A DNA stretch of 45,069 nt from NCBI GenBank assembly GCA_025435555.1, contig JAIWWG010000162.1, positions 1 to 45,069 on the forward strand, in the 5' to 3' direction. Shown in pieces: positions 1,049 through 41,140 of this stretch; the stretch's first letter is position 1; each line of letters starts with the position of its first letter. This DNA is from Chytriomyces cf. hyalinus JEL632 (lineage: Eukaryota; Chytridiomycota; Chytridiomycetes; Chytridiales; Chytriomycetaceae). Below the pieces are notes generated by a model. The model was not told where the DNA came from. It saw nothing but the letters and a program-made list of their open reading frames with translations, and searched no databases. Both the position numbers and the translations under genes were made by a program.

Positions 1049-2585
1049 TCAGTTGATGTGGTACACCGCGATATACTCAATCGCACCGCAATCACTCTCA
1101 ACCGCTGACAGTTGTCTGATGAATGCGCATCTTTCTCCGTCGCCAAACCCTGAGAAGATATCCTTGTGCGTCTCAGCAGTCTTTGCAAATTCCTTCATAA
1201 ACCAGCTGAGATTCAATCCACATGAATTCGGTGGTCCGTGGCTTAGATATCCAAAAGGCAAAATCCGGAACGGCCCATTGGGCCCGACAACAAACATGAA
1301 TGACGCATGGACAACTCCCCTCCGCGAATAACTCGACCATTCGTTGGTGAAAAATCTTCCAAAAATATTCCCATTTTTGATTTTTACAAGTGTGAGTGTG
1401 TTCGGGCGATCTTCACATGCCTCGTACAGGTCCCTTTCTATGCTTTTGCCTGGTTTTCCATGAAACAAGAGAACCGGATCGGCAGCAACACTGTGAGACA
1501 GGTAAAGCGACTGGAAGGTATCGCTTGATTTCGCGCATGATCTCCATCAGGCTCTGGTGTGTGGCCTTCCATTGGTTCCCTCCGGATCGCGTTTTCCTTT
1601 TCCAGTGGAATGCAAGCATATCCTGCGCAAATTTCGGAAGCAGAACTTGAAATGGTTCCAGCAAATTGGCGTGTATCGCAGGGATTTTAATCAGCTCCAC
1701 CACGGCCAGCAACGGCTCTATCAACTCGCTGCCTGTTATAATACGAAATCCCTGTGGAAGTTTCGACTCCAGGGAGAGGTCGCTTGGCGTGTTTTGGCAG
1801 GCTTTGCACCAGGCAATCAGGATTCTCCAGCGATCTAATGGTTCAAGCCTTTCGAACAACAGCAGCGTCTCGACATCTTTCTCGTTCATTTGCGCCAACA
1901 CCCCTCGGCCACATTCCAAAGAATACGGCAGGTTCTGCTGCATTTTGCTGAGGGCATACGACTTGCTGTTCACATGCGCGTGCACCCTGTCAAACTGCAC
2001 GTAACATTCGAGCGCGTGTTCCGATGACAGTTTGTTTTCGTTCACAAGGTAATCAACGCATTTTTGCACAAGGCTGACAACAAGGATTTCGTCCGCAAAG
2101 GCAATCAAGCTGGAAACGAGCGACGGTGGAATATCCGCATCGCCCAAGTACAAGTAATCCAGAACAATCTTGGCTGTCTCAGCATCAACGTCTGCGTGGC
2201 GTAGGGTGATTTTCCTGCAAGTGGATTTCGTAGCTGCTTGTCCCTTGTTGGCCTTTGGGGACAACTTTGAACGCCCCTTGCAAATTCCCGTTTCATAACT
2301 TTCATTGGCATGTCGTCCATGTGTCCACTTTTCGGAGAGGGCCTCCTTGTAGTAATCACTCGCCAAGGCAAGCACATTCGCATGGGCAGTCAACACAACG
2401 CCACCTTCAAACACAAGATCCACATCAGCGTGTTCGGTATCCTTTCGGAGCCGTTCCAGCAATGTGCTGGATGCTTTGTTGGGTGTTTCCATTTCGGGCG
2501 AAGTTTGTGAAAACAGTGGAGAACCACCGGTCTTAAATAGATTCAACTCAGCTTTCAGTACTACCGTCCTGTGTACAATATTCAA
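1049..2585 (-). CDS. BTB/POZ-TLDc domain protein (frame break)
   Basis: Two frames join into one protein. The upstream frame (2585 down to about 1530) holds a BTB domain in roughly residues 40-175: HADVDLVFEGG, LTAHANVLALASDYYKEAL and TAKIVLDYLYLGD are typical, followed by a BACK-like helical region. The downstream frame (about 1545 down to 1049) is a TLDc-type domain, with PNTLTLVKIKNGNIFGRFF and a glycine-rich continuation. BTB proteins often serve as Cullin-3 adaptors, and TLDc domains occur in oxidation-resistance and V-ATPase-binding proteins; the role here is inference. The frames differ by one base near the AAA run at 1529-1531, so a single-base consensus error or an unmodelled intron (GTTCTG..CCAG, about 135 nt) would join them. 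A true frameshift mutation is the third option. Confidence 0.6.
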
Positions 2586-3068
2586 GATATGACTTGCATT
2601 AAGCAGTTTCGTATAATCTCATCCTGCATTAAGCAATTTCCAGATGGAAGCATAATCTAACCCAAGCTGGAAGAACTAGTCTCGAAACGTATTTATATCT
2701 TTTTGGTGGGATCCTCGTGTCTCCCCACTGGAAAACAAGGGCGAAAACTCACGGCTAGCGCTGAATCCTTTATTTTATTTTCGGATTAAGGCCATGTGAC
2801 CAAATTATACAGTGTGTACCGTATCGTTGAGCGCACCAGCTTCCCCAAAGTGGCAGCGCATTTAGTTGAAACGAGACTATTTTGTGGCCATCGCAACCAG
2901 CAAGTGCATTTCAATGGTAGCTCCAACTGAATGGCCATCAATGGTCCGTGAAGAAAAAATGTCGCGTTTGAAAATTCCCCCCTTCATCAAGCAAAGAAGT
3001 ATAAGATGCCCAGCCTGCGATGTGACAACCTACCAGTACACCAACCAACAACCAACAACAACACAAAG
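2586..3068 (+). promoter_or_regulatory. Intergenic region upstream of the peptide precursor
   Basis: No gene is visible here. A TATA-like TATAAG lies at 3000-3005, about 65 nt before the precursor ATG, and the probable 5' leader (3035-3068) is rich in CAAC repeats, as in highly expressed fungal genes. TGAAACG at 2867-2873 differs by one base from the yeast pheromone response element TGAAACA. That match is weak on its own. Confidence 0.3.
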
Positions 3069-3936
3069 ATGCTCTTGAACACTGTCGCCTCCGTCGCAAT
3101 TGTCCTTGCTCCTGTCTTCACCAACGCGGCACCCCTCAACGCTACCGCCGTCACCGAGTCTCAACGCGAGTGGTGCTTCATTGACACCCAGTTTGCCTGC
3201 ACTTCCGCGCCAACTGCCTCAGACTTGCCAAACAACCAAGTTCCATGGTGCTTTGTTGACCAGAACCGTGCTTGCCTCGTGGATGAGACTTTGGCTGTCC
3301 TAGCCATGCAGGAAACCTCCGCCTCCGCTGGAAACCCACTCGCGAGACGTTCTCCATTCTACTGCTGGTTCAAGCCAAACACATGTTGGGGATACCTCAA
3401 GCGCGACTCGGAGACTATCGAAGAGGCCAAGCGTGATGAATCTGCCAGCCTTGCCAGACGTTCTCCATTCTACTGCTGGTTCAAACCAAACACGTGTTGG
3501 GGATACTTGAAGCGTGATTCTGAATCTGTCTCTGCCACCGATTCAAACGAAGTTGCGCCAGTCGAAAAGACCCAGCACTCATAGGTGCTTCATCGACACT
3601 CAGTTTGCTTGCACATCCGCACTTTCGAACGACGCTGCTCCAGGTGCTACCGCTCCATGGTGCTTTATGGATGAGAACAAGGAATGTCTGGTCGATGAAA
3701 CGCTTGCAGTTCTGGCTGGTGGTTCTGCCTCTCTCGCCAGACGCTCTCCATTCTACTGCTGGTTTAAGCCAAACACTTGCTGGGGATACTTGAAACGCGA
3801 CTCTGAGATGGTTATCGAGACTGCCGTACAAGCCAAACGCGACTCTGTGACAGTGGCTAAACGCTCGCCATTCTACTGCTGGTTCAAACCAAACACTTGC
3901 TGGGGTTACTTGAAGCGCGACCAAGACAGCGCATAA
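3069..3936 (+). CDS. Secreted precursor of a repeated cyclic-type peptide (alpha-pheromone-like)
   Basis: The start at 3069 gives a signal peptide (MLLNTVASVAIVLAPVFTNA, likely cut before APLN). The pro-region has two cysteine loops, WCFIDTQFACTS and WCFVDQNRACLV. Then come two copies of SPFYCWFKPNTCWGYL, each preceded by ARR and followed by KR, so Kex2-type cleavage is expected. Frame 0 stops at 3584. The same module repeats 412 bp further on, one base out of frame (3586-3936), with two more perfect copies. One fewer A in the run 3565-3568 would fuse both halves; a 76-nt intron 3528-3603 would also work but removes a loop cysteine. The core YCWFKPNTCW shares aromatic-C-x6-C-W with ascomycete alpha-pheromones (WCTWRGQPCW in Fusarium). 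A Kex2-processed RiPP precursor (dikaritin or epichloecyclin type) is the alternative; no UstYa-like gene is nearby. Confidence 0.75.
3351..3912 (+). repeat. Four copies of the 16-residue peptide core
   Basis: The cores lie at 3351-3398, 3462-3509, 3745-3792 and 3865-3912, each followed by a Lys-Arg pair. The peptide SPFYCWFKPNTCWGYL is identical in all four. The DNA differs at about eleven codons if the flanking Arg, Lys-Arg and Asp codons are counted, and every change is synonymous (for example ACA/ACG/ACT for Thr, TGT/TGC for the second Cys). This is a direct sign of selection on the mature peptide, including in the out-of-frame second half. Confidence 0.9.
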
Positions 3937-5978: not shown

Positions 5979-6049
5979 GCATCAGTGGTTTAGTGGTATA
6001 ATTATCGCCTGCCACGCGGTAGTCCCGGGTTCGATTCCCGGCTGATGCA
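5979..6049 (+). tRNA. tRNA-Gly (anticodon GCC)
   Basis: A 71-nt cloverleaf: acceptor arm GCATCAG/CTGATGC, A-box GTGGTTTAGTGG, anticodon loop CTGCCAC with GCC, B-box GGTTCGATTCC and discriminator A. There is no intron. A T-run terminator (CTTTTGTTTTTTTT) follows directly. The sequence is identical to the copy at 6937-7007. Confidence 0.97.
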
Positions 6050-6158
6050 CTTTTGTTTTTTTTCACAAAAACGCTTTGAGGAACCTCCGCGGCTCTGACA
6101 CGCATATTACGGTGATATGGAAGGATCAGACAACATCAATCTTCATTGTCACGATATT

Positions 6159-6482: not shown

Positions 6483-6936
6483 GTAAGAGGGCCAAGTAAG
6501 GATTTCCCCAAGAGCGGACCTTCTCTTTTCCAGCTAAATCCGTGAAATTTACCAGTTTGACGTGAGACCGTAGAAGAGTTGCACATGCGGATTCAGCTGC
6601 GGTTACCTGCTTCCCCCTAGGCGCGGAAAGAAGCGGGATTTTCCTGTTGAGTCTACGCCAGCTGACTCTACTGCCTGCACCACAAGCAAAGACCCAATTC
6701 GATATGGCTGAAAGATCTGAGAATATTAATGCAGATTATTAGAAAGAACGCGAAGGTAGCCATGGATCTCATGATTTGCATAGGGCAAGCAGGAGTAAAC
6801 ATGCAATCGCAGAAAGTATGCGTTTTTGGAAGCATTGACTGTTGACTGAGGGTAGGCTGAATTTTGTTGTGATCATCTCATCTTGTTTCACCGCAATACA
6901 GCTGCGATGTTGTGTGCGCAACCAAAAAAACAAAAG
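6483..6936. other. Intergenic, no gene seen
   Basis: No reading frame of interest, repeat or RNA gene is visible between the F-box-like remnant and the inverted tRNA-Gly. Just before 6937 the complement carries the T-run termin­ator of that tRNA. Confidence 0.5.
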
Positions 6937-7007
6937 TGCATCAGCCGGGAATCGAACCCGGGACTACCGCGTGGCAGGCGATAATTATACCACTAAACCA
7001 CTGATGC
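6937..7007 (-). tRNA. tRNA-Gly (GCC), second copy, inverted
   Basis: The reverse complement is identical over all 71 nt to the tRNA at 5979-6049, and 13 nt of the trailer (CTTTTGTTTTTTT) also match. The pair is convergent (tail to tail), 887 bp apart. The 5' end faces the retrotransposon, whose first LTR base is 8 nt upstream of G1. Original upstream sequence resumes after the 3' LTR at 12529. Confidence 0.97.
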
Positions 7008-7395: not shown

Positions 7396-8550
7396 ATGCG
7401 TCCCATCACGAATCAAGAAATGAATCCAGAAGCCCCAAGTGAACAAGTCCAAGTCCAGTTTCAAGCAGTAATCCAGAGGTACGAAGACCAACTCTCCGAG
7501 TACCGTGAAGCCCTCCACAACCTCTACAACGAAGTAGCAGCCCTCCGCACACCTCCAGTACCAGTCCAGACCACCCCAAGCGAACCTCCTGCCACCATCC
7601 AACGTCCATTGCCTCTCTTCAGAATGCCAGCTGTCAAGCCCCTCATCTTCTCTGGGAACCACCGCAACCGTCCCGCTCACGAAATCCAGAACTACCTCGA
7701 TGATTACCTCGAACGCTCCCGTGAAATCTGTACCCTCTATGGTTTTGCTCCTTCCACCAATGACCTGACCCAACAGAACCAGCCTACCTACGTCCAATTT
7801 GTTTCCTCTGGTCTCTCTGAAACTGCATGTGTTGCCTGGCGCCGTTTCCCTGAACAAGAACGCCACCACATGACCTGGAATGACTACGCCGCCTGGATCC
7901 AGAAAGCCTTTGGTTCCCACCTCACTCTCAAGCAAGCCATTGAAGCCATGGAAGACCTCCAACAGACCAGCTCAGCCACCCTCTACACCTCCAAGTTCAA
8001 TGAACTCGTCTCTGCTATCGCCGCCTCAAGTGTCCAGTACCCAGTCAAGCATCTCTGCGTCAAGTACCTCCAAGGCTTCAAGTTCCACATCCGTACCAAC
8101 CCAGCCATCTTTGCCATCGACGAAGACCTTGACCACCTCCAACAAGAAGCTGAAAAACTTGATGACCTCACTTTCCGTCACAACAAACGCAACGCCGCTG
8201 AAATCCGCAAGAACCCCTCAACGGCCTCCACGTCCCGCGCTTCAACCAATCAGTCCTTTCGATCAGCCCAAGGCCACTCCTTCAAAACAGCCATCCCTGA
8301 AACCAACGACCCGATGGACCTTGGGAACACTCAGCAAACAACACCCTACCCACGTCTCACCCCAGAACAGAAAGCACTCTACCATTCCAATGGCTGGTGC
8401 GTTTACTGTCAAGCCAAAGACCACGATACCGACCACTGCTCCAAACTCCGTAACCGTCAAGCCCAGCTTGCCACCAAGCCCCCAGCCAGAATTAACAATG
8501 CCTCAACTCAAGCCGAAGGTGAAGAAGCAGACAGCGAAGTCGAACTCTAA
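7396..8550 (+). CDS. Gag (capsid and nucleocapsid) of the Ty3/gypsy element
   Basis: 384 residues from the first ATG after the PBS. The N-terminal part has a short coiled-coil-like stretch (YEDQLSEYREALHNLYNEVA). The middle is the retrotransposon Gag domain with a W-rich core (VAWRRFPE, MTWNDYAAWIQKAFG). A CCHC zinc knuckle (CVYCQAKDHDTDHC) lies near the C-terminus. It forms the cytoplasmic virus-like particle and packages RNA. Its 3' end overlaps the pol frame, which is +1 relative to gag, the frame relation known from Ty3. Pol has its own ATG at 8498 inside the overlap, so reinitiation is also possible. Confidence 0.9.
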   Translation: MRPITNQEMNPEAPSEQVQVQFQAVIQRYEDQLSEYREALHNLYNEVAALRTPPVPVQTTPSEPPATIQRPLPLFRMPAVKPLIFSGNHRNRPAHEIQNYLDDYLERSREICTLYGFAPSTNDLTQQNQPTYVQFVSSGLSETACVAWRRFPEQERHHMTWNDYAAWIQKAFGSHLTLKQAIEAMEDLQQTSSATLYTSKFNELVSAIAASSVQYPVKHLCVKYLQGFKFHIRTNPAIFAIDEDLDHLQQEAEKLDDLTFRHNKRNAAEIRKNPSTASTSRASTNQSFRSAQGHSFKTAIPETNDPMDLGNTQQTTPYPRLTPEQKALYHSNGWCVYCQAKDHDTDHCSKLRNRQAQLATKPPARINNASTQAEGEEADSEVEL

Positions 8551-10714
8551 TTGGTTCTCTGCCCTCCCCTTTGACAATCCACCCGACCACCTGACCCCAG
8601 TTACTGTCCCTGCTCCTTCCGTTCAAGTCCACTGTCCCAAGCTTCCCCTGTTCCAAGTCCAGACCCAGCACTCCACGCCCTACGCCGACAGTCCCGGCCT
8701 CCTCGTCTGCCAAGGTACCATCAATGAACACCCCATCTCCATCCTCATTGACTCTGGAGCCAATCCAAGTTTCATCAACTCAAGCCTGCCGTTCCTCCAA
8801 AACAAGTCCCTCGTTCCTCAAGCCTGCAAGATCAAGCTTGCCAACGGTTCTGTTGTTAAAGGCCAGCGTACTGAGCCTCTACAAGTGAAAATAAACAATA
8901 CTTCTTTCCAAGACTACCGTTCTTTTACTACTGTCCCTGACCTCGCATACGACCTGATCCTCGGAAAAGACTGGCTTGATGCCCACAATCCCTCCATTGA
9001 CTGGCCAACAAACCATGTCCGCATTGGTCCACACAGCTGGAAATGCCGTTCTCCACGTTCCTCTCCAGAAGTCCTTACCGCGCAGCAATTCATCAATCTC
9101 CTCCAGACCCTCCAGCCCGACGATTTCCTCGGAGCCATCCTGCCTCAAAAGATAAAGGTTACTATGTCCAACAGTGACAGAGCCGACGAATCTATACGTA
9201 CCTCCCTCCCGCCAAACCTCCAGACGATCGTGGACCGATATCCAGATGTCTTTGCCCCATTCGAGGGCCTACCGCCATCCAGACCTACCGACATGAAGAT
9301 CGATGTAGATCCTTCTGCTAACTCCAGCCCTCCCTACCGACCAATCTACCCAATGAGCGCCCCAGAACTCAAGGCCCTCCAAGAAGAAATCACTTACCTC
9401 CTCAAGCACCAACGCATCAGAGCCTCCACTTCCCCTTACGGAGCTCCTGTCTTCTTTGTCAAGCAAAAGGATAAACTACGCCTTGTCTTCGACTACCGCG
9501 CCGTGAACAAACTCACCGTCAAGAATCGCGCTGCCCTCCCAAACATCCTCGAGTCCCTCGACCGCCTCTCCAAAGCCAAGTACTTCACCAAGATCGACCT
9601 CTCCTCCGGCTTCCACCAGATCCGCATCCAAGAATCCGACATCCACAAGACTGCCTTCCGCACCAAGTATGGCCACTACGAATGGGTCGTTATGCCCTTT
9701 GGCCTTGCAAATGCTCCCGCCGTATTCCAGACTACCCTCAGCTCCATATTCCGTGACTTCATTGACGCCTTCCTCACTGTCTACATTGACGACCTCCTCA
9801 TCTTCTCCGAGACCCTCGAAGACCACCTCAAGCACATAGACCAAGTACTGCAACGCCTCCAAGCCAACAAGCTCCACGTTCGCCTTTCCAAGTGCTCCTT
9901 CCTCCAGCAAGAACTCGAATACCTTGGCTATTGGATTGCTAGAGGTTCCATCTCTGTCCTACCATCCAGAACCAGCTCCATCACTGACTTTGAAGAACCT
10001 TCCAACTACTCCGAACTTCGTTCCTTCCTGGGACTCGCCAACACCGTCCATCGCTTTATCAAGCACCACGCCGCCCTCATTGCGCCTCTCTCAGACATCC
10101 TCCGTGACCACAAGACTACCTCCTTCTCCGACAAGTGGAATGACACAGCCCGCAGCCATTTCATCAACATCAAACGGATCCTCGCCTCTCCAGAATGGCT
10201 CGCCATCTTCAACCCTGAACTTCCTGTCCATCTTTACACCGACTGGTCCGCCCGCGCCATTGGTGGCTACATCGCCCAACCAGACTCTACCGGAACTGAC
10301 CAGCCCATTGCCTACTACTCCCGCAAGCTCAAGCCAGAAGAATCCAAGTACCACCCCTACATGGGCGAAATCCTCGCTCTTGTTGAATGCCTCAACCATT
10401 TTCGCCATTACATTCATGGCAATCAAATCCTCGCCTTTACCGACCACCAGTCCCTTTGCCACATCCTCACCCAACCCAAGCTCCGCCCTGTCCACCATCG
10501 CTGGTTAGCCGACCTGCTGGCCTACGATTTCCAGATCCAGTGGACTCCGGGGGAGTGGAACACCATTGCTGACGCACTGTCAAGAAGAAGATTCGCAACT
10601 GATGCCTCCGTTCAAGTCAACCTCCAAGGAAACACCGTCCATTCTACCGTCCAGATCCCAGAATCTTACCTCCTGCTCAACACCACGACCCTGACCATCA
10701 CTGATACCTCATGA
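8498..10714 (+). CDS. Pol: protease, reverse transcriptase and RNase H
   Basis: The domain order is clear. The aspartic protease has ILIDSGANPSFI. Reverse transcriptase carries KIDLSSGFHQIRI, PFGLANAPAVFQ and the catalytic YIDDLLIF. RNase H carries YTDWSARAIGGYIA, a conserved glutamate (YMGEILALVE), FTDHQSL and the terminal TIADALSRR. The frame is open upstream to 7880 inside gag; the ATG at 8498 is the nearest plausible start if translation is not by +1 frameshift. It ends in TGA at 10712-10714, whose bases overlap the integrase ATG (ATGA). The catalytic residues all look intact. Confidence 0.93.
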   Translation: MPQLKPKVKKQTAKSNSNWFSALPFDNPPDHLTPVTVPAPSVQVHCPKLPLFQVQTQHSTPYADSPGLLVCQGTINEHPISILIDSGANPSFINSSLPFLQNKSLVPQACKIKLANGSVVKGQRTEPLQVKINNTSFQDYRSFTTVPDLAYDLILGKDWLDAHNPSIDWPTNHVRIGPHSWKCRSPRSSPEVLTAQQFINLLQTLQPDDFLGAILPQKIKVTMSNSDRADESIRTSLPPNLQTIVDRYPDVFAPFEGLPPSRPTDMKIDVDPSANSSPPYRPIYPMSAPELKALQEEITYLLKHQRIRASTSPYGAPVFFVKQKDKLRLVFDYRAVNKLTVKNRAALPNILESLDRLSKAKYFTKIDLSSGFHQIRIQESDIHKTAFRTKYGHYEWVVMPFGLANAPAVFQTTLSSIFRDFIDAFLTVYIDDLLIFSETLEDHLKHIDQVLQRLQANKLHVRLSKCSFLQQELEYLGYWIARGSISVLPSRTSSITDFEEPSNYSELRSFLGLANTVHRFIKHHAALIAPLSDILRDHKTTSFSDKWNDTARSHFINIKRILASPEWLAIFNPELPVHLYTDWSARAIGGYIAQPDSTGTDQPIAYYSRKLKPEESKYHPYMGEILALVECLNHFRHYIHGNQILAFTDHQSLCHILTQPKLRPVHHRWLADLLAYDFQIQWTPGEWNTIADALSRRRFATDASVQVNLQGNTVHSTVQIPESYLLLNTTTLTITDTS

Positions 10715-12213
10715 ACGATATCAAGGACATGAACACTACCGACCCCCAGTTCTTAGAAATAGCGCAGTTTTTAGTTGACCCACTGGACCCAGAAACCTAC
10801 GACCACGACCCATCCAAGGCTCCCAAGCACCTCCTCCCTCAGATCTCAAGATATCGACTCCGCAACGGTTTCCTCCACTACGTTGACAAAACCCACGCAA
10901 GACTCTACATTCCAGCCCCTCTCCGCAACTCGCTACTCAAGAAAGCTCACTCCTACGGTCCAGCAATCCACAACAACTGGGAACGCACCTCCGAACGCCT
11001 CACCAGATACTTCCACTGGCCAAAACTTCATCGCGATGTCCAGCGACTCTGCCAGAACTGCGATAACTGCCAACGCCTCAAGGTAGCACGCCACGCCCCT
11101 TATGGACTCCTCCAGCCTCACGACGTCCCGCCCTTCCCATGGCACACTTGCTCCATGGACTTCATGACCAAGCTCCCTCTCACTAAGTCAGGATACGATG
11201 CCCTCATGGTAGTTGTCGACTCTGGAACCAAATGAACAAGATTAATCCCATGCCACACCACCTCAACTGCACGCGATATTGCCAATCTCTTCGAAACTCA
11301 CATCTTCCCGCACCATGGTATTCCAGTCCATTTCATCTCTGATCGAGACACCAAGTTCACCTCCAACTTTTGGCAAGCACTCTGCAAGTCCCTCCGAATC
11401 AAGCTGACGATCTCCAGCTCTTCCCATCCTCAAACTGATGGCCAGACAGAACAAAAGAACGACTGGATCCTCCAAGCACTACGACACTTTGTTGCTCCCT
11501 ACCAAGACGACTGGGACATCCACCTACCGAAGATCGAATTTGGGATCAATGATACAGTCAATTCAAGTACTGGTTACACACCTTTCTTCCTCAAGTACGG
11601 TCGCCACCCTCGCTCCATGATCAACATCAACCTCCCGCCTGACACCTCCCTCTCTATCAAGGACATCCGCGCAGAATACCAAGTTGCCAAGGATCGAGTT
11701 CGTGACTCTCAAGACAAGTACGCTGCCATCGCCAATCGCAAGCGCCTCGAATCCCCCTTCAAAGTTGGAGATTTAGTTCTTGTCTCAGCCAAGGAATTCA
11801 AGCCTCCCAACCTTCGATACCGACAGACCAACAAGCTCTCTGAACAGTACTCCGGCCCCTACAAGATCATCGAACTTGTCGGACCTGTCCCGTCCTGCAA
11901 GCTAGCTCTTCCCACAGATTGGGGAGTCCACCCTGTCTTCCACCCTGAAAAACTTCGACCTTACTTCTTTGACACAGCCAAACATCCTCTTGACAACCAG
12001 CCCATTGCTTTACGCGTCATTGACAAAGTCCTCTCTTCTCGTATTCTCGACGGTCACAAGCAAGTCCTCATCCAATGGAAAGACCACCACCCTGTCTACA
12101 ACTGTTGGTTAAACGTGACTCCAGAACTCATACAACGCGTCAAGCAAGACCAACCTCCGCCAAGTTCACTCCCCTTTTCATCACGTACGCTCTTGGAGGC
12201 GGGTGTCACGTAA
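10711..12213 (+). CDS. Integrase with chromodomain-like tail, interrupted by TGA
   Basis: The ATG overlaps the pol stop (ATGA). An HHCC zinc-binding region (KKAHSYGPAIHNNWERTSER then CQNCDNC) leads into the DDE core: SMDFMTKLPL has the first Asp, ISDRDTKFTSNFW the second, and the Glu lies in DGQTEQKNDW. Between the first and second Asp the frame is broken by TGA at 11233-11235; the same frame then stays open to 12213. The C-terminal GPY-like region (YSGPYKIIELVGPVPSCKL) is followed by a chromodomain-like segment (LIQWKDHHPVYNCW). The last codons and the stop lie inside the 3' LTR, so the polypurine tract is coding. Integrase joins the cDNA to chromosomal DNA in the nucleus. Confidence 0.88.
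12195..12203 (+). promoter_or_regulatory. Polypurine tract
   Basis: GGAGGCGGG ends exactly at the 3' LTR. It is the expected primer site for plus-strand DNA and is read as integrase codons at the same time. Confidence 0.7.
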
Positions 12214-38605: not shown

Positions 38606-39775
38606 TTATACTGCGCGTTCCAAGGACGCAAGCCTCGCATCATTGAAGCAAGAAAAAACCCAATCATACGCCGCAGTCCGCACTGGAAAAGTTTCACGCT
38701 TCTGCACACGGACCACCCCCGACTCTATCATAGACGCCGCATATTTGAGACTCGTTGTCTTGAAATTGGTCATCCTGCGATTAACTCTCTTGTTGAAGAT
38801 GGACGCGAGCGAGAAGTGCGATTTGTTCCGATGGCTGTCATGGTTAATGTGAACTGCAGCGAGACTGTCTGTTGCATCGATGGTAGCCACCCCTTCATAG
38901 TGATTCATGAGTCCCGTGAACCAGTTGTCAAACGTGACTCCGCCAAGCAAATGAGGCGGGAAGCAGCCAAACTCCAGCGGCAACTCTCTGTTCCATATAA
39001 AGTAGTCGACCGCCCTGGCCCCGAACAGCGTTCCATTTGACTTGACAGCATCGTTTACGTTCGACAACCGCTGATCGAGTGTGAAAGATGGTTGGAGCGC
39101 GCTGCTCTCGACATCGACGTTTATCCTCCTTCCAAATATACCTACGTTCTTTTGACCCCTAGATTCGCGAAAGTACATCACACCACGCATGGTATCCACT
39201 AGTGATGTGTCAAACAAAATATCTCCGTTCGCAAACCCAATAAATGGCGACTCAGCGCCAATGCCATTGTGAACTGCATTCATAATATGCCGATATGATG
39301 CAGCCTCCACATCATTGGTGTGAGCTCCCAGACGGTATGTCGGCAGGCCGTAACTGCGCGCAAGGAGAAGGGCGGTACAGTCCCGGCTCGCAATGACAAA
39401 ATCAACGCCAGGTAAAGACGCCCGCGATTCATACAGAAACTGATCTCGGTACCATGCAAACAGTGTTTCATTGCTGTGCTTTGCAGCACTAGAGGGTGGT
39501 GCTTTTGGGCTGACAATTAGAGTGAGAATGCTGTCGCGATTGAGTGAGCCAACAAGCCCGTCAGAAGTACACGCGGAGTAATCTGGACTGTCGAGATGGT
39601 TGATGGGCTTGGATGACGCATCGAGGTTCCCGATAGATCCAACTTTAGGTGCATTGGCATCTGATTGCGCGCATTGGAGATTCGATACTGCATAGATGAT
39701 CATGAGAGGTATCATCAACACTATCGCTCGGAATGGTGTCAAGCGAAACGCGCGATTCGCCGTTATCTTTGTCAT
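38606..39775 (-). CDS. Type II membrane glycosyltransferase-like protein, copy A
   Basis: 389 residues from the ATG that starts MTKITANRAF; the frame is open 54 codons further upstream. A short basic cytoplasmic stretch is followed by a signal anchor (AIVLMIPLMIIYAVSNL). The lumenal part contains WYRDQFLYESRASLPGVDFV, then GFANGDILFDTS, a DxD-like element in the GT-A manner, and VDYFIWNRELPLEF and FDNWFTGLMNHYEG. I take it for a Golgi glycosyltransferase, but the family is not recognised and the activity is inference. The next gene upstream is a close paralogue on the same strand, so the pair arose by tandem duplication. Confidence 0.6.
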   Translation of the reverse strand: MTKITANRAFRLTPFRAIVLMIPLMIIYAVSNLQCAQSDANAPKVGSIGNLDASSKPINHLDSPDYSACTSDGLVGSLNRDSILTLIVSPKAPPSSAAKHSNETLFAWYRDQFLYESRASLPGVDFVIASRDCTALLLARSYGLPTYRLGAHTNDVEAASYRHIMNAVHNGIGAESPFIGFANGDILFDTSLVDTMRGVMYFRESRGQKNVGIFGRRINVDVESSALQPSFTLDQRLSNVNDAVKSNGTLFGARAVDYFIWNRELPLEFGCFPPHLLGGVTFDNWFTGLMNHYEGVATIDATDSLAAVHINHDSHRNKSHFSLASIFNKRVNRRMTNFKTTSLKYAASMIESGVVRVQKRETFPVRTAAYDWVFSCFNDARLASLERAV

Positions 39776-39951: not shown

Positions 39952-41140
39952 TTAATCACCCCCCACGTTGAAGTGAGGCCCTTTCCTGGAATCTCGAGCT
40001 TGTCGAAAACATGCAAATTCCGAGGCATACGCCGTGGTTTCTTCTGGCACGTTTTCGCGTTTCAAAACACTAACCACACCCTCTCCTGTCGCTTTTGTCG
40101 AATATTTGAGATGGTTTGTCTTGTAATTTGTCAAGCTGCCGATTGAAAGTCGATGCAAGCGAAGAATGCGACATTCTGGGCTTGGTATCGTGGTTGATGT
40201 GCATTGCAGAGAGACTATTTGTAGCGTCGATGGTTGCCACCCCTTCATAGTGGTTCATGAGCCCCGTGAACCAGTTGTCGAATTCAACTCCACCAAGAAA
40301 GAAAGGTGGGAAGCAGCTGAATTCCAACGTCAATTCCCTATTCCATATGAAATAATCCACCGCTAAGGTCCAATATAACTTTCCGTTTGACTTGACAGCA
40401 TCCTGTACGTTAAGCAGCCGCTGATCCAGTGTAAAAGTCGGTTGAAGCGCGCTCCTCTCGACATCGACATTGATCCTCCTTCCAAACACACCCACATGAT
40501 TCTGACCCATAGATTCACGAAATTGCATCACACCACGCATCGTATCTGCCAGTGACGTGTCGAACAAAATATCTCCATTCGCAAACCCAATAAACGGCGA
40601 CGTGGCACCAATGCTGCTGTGAACTGCATTCAAAATATGTCGGTATGTTGCAGCCTCCACATCACTGGTATGAGATCCCAGACGGTATGTCGGCAGGCCG
40701 TAACTGCGCGCATGGAGAAGAGCAGCACAGTCGCGACTTGCAATGACAAAATCAACACCAGGAAGAGATGCACGCGTTTCATACAGAAACTGGTCTCGGT
40801 ACCACGCAAAGAGTGTTTCATTACTGTACTTCGCAGCATTGGAGGGTGGTGCTTTTGGGCTGACAATGAGAGTGAGAATGCTGTCGCGTTTGAGCGTGCC
40901 CACAAGGTCGTCGGCAGTGCATGCGGAATAGTGTGAACATTCGGATTCTTGATCGCTATTTGAGTTGTAGTTGACGGAAGTTTTGAGTTTCGATGGTAAT
41001 TGGGGCTTGGGTTCCACTGGCTGGCGGGTGGGGGGCAGCAGCCGGTTGAACATCCACACGAAAGTCATGCAGGGTATCATCAGTAGAGTCAAGCGGATAG
41101 GCGTCATTCGAAACACGCGTCGCACTTCTGTTTTCGCCAT
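39952..41140 (-). CDS. Type II membrane glycosyltransferase-like protein, copy B (C-terminal frame break)
   Basis: The start MAKTEVRRVFRMTPIR is followed by a signal anchor (LTLLMIPCMTFVWMF). Most of the lumenal domain is nearly the same as in copy A (GVDFVIASRDC, PFIGFANGDILFDTS, DYFIWNREL, TIDATNSL), while the stem after the anchor has diverged. The main frame ends at 40070, but the sequence homologous to copy A's C-terminus (TNYKTNHLKYS, VVSVLKRENV) continues in the next frame to 39952. One base fewer near 40133-40134 would join them. Either copy B lost its tail by a frameshift or the consensus has an error there. Confidence 0.6.

Follow-up and report, generated by a model that had tools for sequence, protein, structure and literature searches.

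Does the short repeat-containing gene near one end of a contig from Chytriomyces cf. hyalinus JEL632 encode a secreted peptide signal, and is such a signal related to the alpha-pheromones of ascomycetes? A sequence-only reading of positions 3069-3936 had proposed an alpha-pheromone-like repeat precursor, possibly in an early-diverging fungus. We analysed this locus within the window, which is the whole stretch of 45,069 nucleotides that makes up contig C71, and searched for related genes in the JEL632 genome (37.8 Mb in 242 contigs) and in sequence databases. The general part of the proposal, a Kex2-type repeat precursor with a two-cysteine core in an early-diverging fungus, is supported: the host is a water-living chytrid of the family Chytriomycetaceae (Chytridiomycota, Chytridiales) and the relatives are from C. 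hyalinus. The placement among the alpha-pheromones is not, as set out below.

Architecture of the A precursor

The product of the gene, here called the A precursor, starts at the ATG at 3069 on the + strand with a hydrophobic N-terminus, MLLNTVASVAIVLAPVFTNA followed by AP, which we judged by eye to be a signal peptide. The ORF program placed the start farther upstream, at an in-frame ATG at 3006, and the homologous C. hyalinus protein P0002 (see below) opens at the methionine of 3069. Between the signal-peptide-like start and the first repeat unit is a pro-stretch that carries an Asn-Ala-Thr sequon. The rest is built from a larger unit that is present twice, in which a pro-module with two pairs of cysteines leads into two copies of the core SPFYCWFKPNTCWGYL (Table 1).

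Translation confirmed the four identical 16-residue cores between dibasic sites that had been described. Lys-Arg directly follows all four, Arg-Arg precedes cores 1-3 and Lys-Arg precedes core 4. The motif Y-C-x6-C-W is likewise present in 4/4 cores, with a loop that reads Y-C-WFKPNT-C-W, and each core begins with a single Ser-Pro dipeptide, as do the cores of P0002 and of the second gene copy on contig C83. A repeat search grouped the four core copies as one family of 90 nt.

What had been overlooked in handling 3069-3936 as one precursor is that the segment is not a single open frame in this assembly. The first frame ends at the TAG at 3582-3584, and the second half (3586-3936) is read in a different frame from the first. 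Judging from the homologous sequences, an intron is an unlikely cause of the interruption: an AG is missing from the C83 copy at the position that aligns with the window TAG, the linkers of the window and C83 copies differ by several small indels, and the protein sequence of P0002 continues across the linker, agreeing with the first frame of the window up to its stop. A programmed frameshift mediated by RNA structure was also rejected, the predicted fold of 3540-3640 being no stronger than those of shuffled sequences (z -0.19).

Table 1. Features of the A precursor gene and its upstream region, in window positions
Feature	Position	Strand	Basis
Conserved upstream stretch with TATAAG at 3000-3005; putative promoter or 5' leader	2913..3068	+	blastn match with C83 copy
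Signal peptide MLLNTVASVAIVLAPVFTNA; cleavage predicted between TNA and AP	3069..3128	+	Translation; P0002 has the same start Met
Pro-module 1: WCFIDTQFAC, WCFVDQNRAC (PWCFVDQNRAC), ends LVDETLAVLA	3168..3305	+	Translation; C71/C83 comparison
RR + core 1 SPFYCWFKPNTCWGYL (core 3351-3398) + KR	3345..3404	+	Translation
RR + core 2 (core 3462-3509) + KR	3456..3515	+	Translation
In-frame TAG, end of first frame; homologous sequence goes on in another frame	3582..3584	+	P0002 unbroken here
Pro-module 2: CFIDTQFAC, PWCFMDENKEC, LVDETLAVLA; duplicate of pro-module 1	3586..3717	+	Translation, alignment
RR + core 3 (core 3745-3792) + KR	3739..3798	+	Translation
KR + core 4 (core 3865-3912) + KR	3859..3918	+	Translation
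Final stop TAA	3934..3936	+	Translation

An intact relative and a second copy

The sequence-only reading had suggested that relatives be searched for the core with Lys-Arg flanks, and such a search recovered the same architecture without interruption from C. hyalinus. In P0002, a C. hyalinus protein of 287 aa (HDU77_011605), the whole arrangement, including four cores, lies in one frame. This protein is identical to the first window frame at 159/171 positions (93%) and to the second at 114/116 positions (98%). Outside the JEL632 genome, A cores were found in one protein cluster only (6 member sequences), so that variation of the core between species is not visible in these data. A wider protein search with P0002 returned only P0002 itself among 7697 candidates, and no relative was found in the PDB at E up to 10. 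Pfam placed a LolA_2 domain at residues 191-258 of P0002 (30.5 bits against a cut-off of 26.8). We set this match aside as spurious, which is a matter of judgement: its best stretch spans Kex2 sites and a core, and NCBIfam gave only unrelated families below threshold, one of them a LolA model.

The JEL632 genome contains a single other copy of the A gene (E up to 0.001), on contig C83. It is aligned by blastn with the block 2913-3926 of the window at 86% identity, and the match takes in the upstream stretch. This copy is interrupted twice, before core 1 and in the linker that joins core 2 to pro-module 2. The latter linker is also the one broken in the window, although by different small indels; in all, several small indels separate the two copies there, and one is located before core 1.

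The C83 copy is a dispersed paralog of the window gene. Against its being an allele, similarity to the window in the first 13,900 of the 29,898 C83 bases was confined to the block 2913-3926 with its internal repeats and to a tRNA-Gly, and apart from a match of 35 bases, 2112 bases of the C83 flank occur only once in the genome. The BTB-domain gene next to the peptide gene in the window (1413-2492) belongs to a dispersed family with 22 DNA matches in the genome, itself included, and because it is multi-copy it has no bearing on the question of allele or paralog. The frame breaks in the C71 and C83 copies are either assembly errors or signs of recent decay, two causes that the assembly does not distinguish.

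Several other features were noted around the gene. At 5979-6050 and 6936-7007 of the window, about 0.9 kb from each other, are two oppositely oriented tRNA-Gly(gcc) genes, and a stretch that matches tRNA-Gly also adjoins the A copy on C83. The region 7396-12213, downstream of the peptide gene, contains retroelement-like frames that by reading resemble gag, reverse transcriptase and integrase. Further along, two tandem paralogous proteins (38606-39775 and 40070-41140) are similar to each other, again by reading, and a Pfam scan of the protein at 38606-39775 gave no match.

A second precursor family

A gene for another repeat precursor, B, of 176 residues (L007:1309-1839, equivalent to C83:5308-5838) is located on C83 some 2 kb away from the A gene, and the genome contains a second B copy at C177:437148-437660. 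The C83 protein has three cores, DPGNWCDPVDCNPMYHPE, each followed by Lys-Arg. On C171 and C1, weak matches to B correspond, by reading, to ORFs that lack the repeat architecture. Two Cu/Zn superoxide dismutase genes were also observed near the peptide genes on C83 (L007:2694-3263 and L007:6184-7488), together with a further fragment at L007:306-641 that resembles a superoxide dismutase by reading.

The database search for B covered 218 candidates and yielded five relatives at E up to 1. These were P0004 from Chytriomyces cf. hyalinus JEL632, with 99% identity over 85% of the precursor from C83, and P0003, P0005, P0006 and P0007 from C. hyalinus. P0003 (HDU77) and P0005 (HDU80, partial) have unaltered cores, and changes were seen in P0006 and P0007, both from HDU81, where V is replaced by N, D by N, M by L, Y by F or A and, once, N by T. 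Core variation in this family was hence seen in the records of one of the three C. hyalinus strains.

Comparison of the A and B proteins revealed no similarity beyond chance. The two precursors are nevertheless alike in their processing anatomy, in a core of the type aromatic-Cys...Cys, in the X-Pro dipeptide that opens every A core and every observed B core, and in being encoded by the same genome. They differ in that the cysteine spacing in B is C-x4-C, in that the B cores vary in P0006 and P0007, and in that the first B core comes after a single Arg.

Purifying selection on cores and pro-modules

The eight A cores with Lys-Arg in the genome (four on C71 and four on C83) are identical at the protein level, although 12 of their 54 DNA positions vary, all 12 synonymously. 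The same holds for the six B cores, in which 12 of 60 DNA positions vary and 12/12 are synonymous. The sets consist of exact peptide copies, and the gene translations revealed no further, diverged core in the genome. With about 21% (~0.21) of random changes expected to be synonymous and the sites assumed to be independent, the probability of 12/12 is ~1e-8 for each family, which is an order of magnitude only because the core copies share ancestry. Eight identical peptides in which all 12 variable sites are synonymous are not a chance pattern, and the identity of the cores is kept by purifying selection.

We also estimated the ratio of replacement to silent rates between the C71 and C83 copies, using gap-free stretches and leaving out the gapped linkers (the broken one among them) and the C-terminal tail. 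The ratio was 0.27 for the N-terminal stretch, 0.08 for the linkers, 0.026 for the two pairs of pro-modules taken together and 0.015 for the cores. The one replacement in the core count arises as a path effect of a leucine codon change in two steps, and the residues are identical. Replacement and silent changes numbered 2 versus 22 in the pro-modules and 3 versus 12 in the ungapped linkers, while there was no amino-acid difference in the cores. The pro-modules had four matches in the genome at E up to 10, all of them within the two A gene copies.

The cysteine-containing pro-modules are under roughly the same constraint as the cores. This is a new observation, and it means that the main product is not necessarily the 16-mer: the pro-modules may be products or folding aids themselves. 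The low replacement rate indicates that the A sequence was under selection until recently.

Codon usage sets the A gene apart from its neighbours. In the A frames, 56 of 70 two-fold codons for F, Y, N, D, H and C end in C (31/39 and 25/31 in the two frames), compared with fractions of 0.45-0.65 in six other ORFs of the window; the B precursor, at 0.64, is inside that range. A bias of this kind is expected of well-expressed genes and suggests that the A gene is strongly expressed.

Candidate processing enzymes and receptors in the genome

The enzyme families that could process such a precursor are present in the genome. A kexin candidate on C68 has an S8 domain and a P-domain in neighbouring frames. 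The search for the P-domain gave four matches, three of them above the cut-off, and two of these three are on C123 with an internal stop. C188 carries a DPP-IV/Ste13-like gene in which DPPIV_N and S9 pieces were found together with an N-terminal stretch that is hydrophobic by eye, and Peptidase_S10, the family of carboxypeptidases, had 33 exon-wise matches. By their family assignments, these kexin, DPP-IV/Ste13-like and carboxypeptidase genes are candidates for cutting the A precursor.

The check for a Ste2-like receptor that the sequence-only reading had put forward gave no candidate in the genome for STE2 (PF02116) at E up to 10, and none for STE3 at the same limit; the control genomes gave no match to either family, so these nulls are no proof of absence. 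With 7tm_3 (class C GPCR), an exon-wise search of the same kind gave 59 matches at E up to 1; the majority exceed the family cut-off, and GPCR genes are thus detectable in this way. The class C repertoire is large, and several of the matches are located on C193 and C210. In the literature, the accessible text of PMC3251606 reports no reliable homologues of Ste2, Ste3 or Git3 in Chytridiomycota, and that of PMC12842992 reports STE2-like receptors from Ascomycota only.

Comparison with known repeat precursors

By its sequence features, the A precursor can be classified as a Kex2-processed repeat protein (KEP), and proteins of this known kind have been recorded in chytrids. According to the portions of these papers available to us, KEPs were defined in PMC6339444 and surveyed in PMC7329392, the class takes in the alpha-pheromones, and Chytridiomycota have 9.37 KEPs per strain (PMC7329392). 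The A precursor shares with them a signal-peptide-like start, near-identical internal repeats (four cores and two pro-modules) and dibasic Kex2 sites between the repeats, and there is a kexin in the genome. One continuous frame is found in P0002 and not in the C71 and C83 copies, so that the placement among the KEPs rests on P0002. Features that distinguish the A precursor from other KEPs are the core with its predicted loop, the X-Pro start and the duplicated cysteine-rich pro-modules, constrained to about the same degree as the cores. We found no published account of it in the literature on Chytriomyces and chytrid KEX2, pheromones and Ste2, a search that covered open-licence papers exclusive of supplementary KEP lists.

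The resemblance to the two-cysteine alpha-pheromones of filamentous ascomycetes raises the question of whether the A precursor is a true alpha-pheromone, part of an MF_alpha/Ste2 system inherited from a common ancestor with Dikarya. Both are multi-copy precursors with Kex2 sites, a core of the form aromatic-Cys-x6-Cys-Trp and a start of the X-Pro/X-Ala type after the dibasic site. The cysteine spacing noted earlier is indeed shared, C-x6-C-W being common to the A core and to the Fusarium alpha-pheromone core WCTWKGQPCW (given in the available part of PMC7329813), and the other residues between the cysteines and the C-terminal GYL do differ as had been stated. Beyond the Cys/Trp frame, the loops agree at 1/6 positions, which is reached by 358 of the 720 permutations of the loop and is therefore at chance level. 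The accessible text of PMC6339444 describes X-Pro as the Ste13 signature of ascomycete alpha-pheromones and names Rhizophagus irregularis as the only early-diverging fungus with such features in its survey, but the comparison with our A and B cores is a loose one because each has one X-Pro dipeptide and not a run. The A core also has Tyr in place of Trp before the first cysteine and a GYL tail, and its precursor has cysteine-rich pro-modules. MF_alpha and MF_alpha_N had no match in P0002 at a limit of E 10, with scan filters that drop most matches above ~0.1, and the host has no STE2 or STE3 candidate, as against the 59 matches to 7tm_3. In line with the published reports cited above, we consider shared ancestry with the alpha-pheromones extremely unlikely, and membership of that family, as first proposed, is unsupported. 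By analogy, the A precursor may work like an alpha-pheromone precursor to which it is not demonstrably related.

Dikaritin RiPP precursors of the ustiloxin type, which had been named as the main alternative, are also Kex2-cut repeats, and a core with Tyr and Trp, repeated between Kex2 sites, might in principle be cyclised by UstYa-family oxidases. The A core differs in having two cysteines, which provide a simpler route to a loop. No candidate for UstYa (PF11807) was found in the 37.8 Mb of the genome at E up to 1, a null that is no proof of absence since no control genome gave a match either. This alternative has gained no support from the analysis and we regard it as very unlikely.

Proposed processing and role

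From the observed architecture, the constraint on the sequence and the presence of the processing-enzyme families, we infer the following course of events. The precursor would enter the secretory pathway, where kexin would cut after Arg-Arg and Lys-Arg. A Kex1-type carboxypeptidase would then trim the C-terminal Lys-Arg, and a Ste13-type dipeptidyl peptidase might optionally take off the N-terminal Ser-Pro. A disulfide between the two core cysteines would give a looped peptide, SPFYCWFKPNTCWGYL or FYCWFKPNTCWGYL, in four copies per precursor, and the constrained cysteine-rich pro-modules located between the cores would also be set free. The most probable role of the looped peptide would be signaling from one chytrid cell to another, outside the cell, by way of a receptor other than Ste2. 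We assign a probability of about 0.5 to this reading, a secreted looped signaling peptide with a receptor that is not Ste2; the interruption of the frame in both copies of the JEL632 genome speaks against it.

The same precursor anatomy would be compatible with an effector or antimicrobial use, in which the looped peptide and the cysteine-rich pro-modules act on other microbes or on the substrate organism and not on kin. The available text of PMC7329392 proposes that some KEP products are effectors or toxins and others pheromones, and both the multi-copy release and the high codon bias fit a product made in bulk. The occurrence of two sequence-unrelated precursors close together on C83 also fits a role of this kind. 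The A core, however, has a single charged residue and, by reading, no obvious lytic helix. It is moreover invariant in eight copies of the JEL632 genome and four of P0002, where an arms race would favour change, an argument to which the variable B cores of the HDU81 records are an exception. On balance, a function in defence, in competition or as an effector is possible but doubtful. A different concern is that the gene is a decaying relic in JEL632 and that the peptide is made only by its relatives, for which the broken frames of both copies and the several small indels of the C83 copy might be taken as evidence. Replacement changes between the copies are, however, far below silent ones in the modules, ungapped linkers and cores, and P0002 is intact, so that the breaks must be recent or the result of sequencing errors. 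We consider decay distinctly unlikely.

Returning to the looped peptide as a signal between chytrid cells, its use in mating is possible. Syngamy has been described in C. hyalinus (Miller and Dylewski 1981, as cited in the accessible part of PMC10512372). A more specific version, which we think unlikely, holds that the peptide is a pheromone for mating or rhizoid fusion that arose independently of the alpha-factor/Ste2 system of Dikarya and acts through another type of receptor, such as one of the many class C GPCRs of this genome; the B peptides would then be a second signal, variable between lineages. The exact peptides of the A and B families are now defined for synthesis and testing in C. 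hyalinus, and the A gene provides a candidate for signaling between cells that can be put to the test, in a group of fungi in which such signals are largely unknown.
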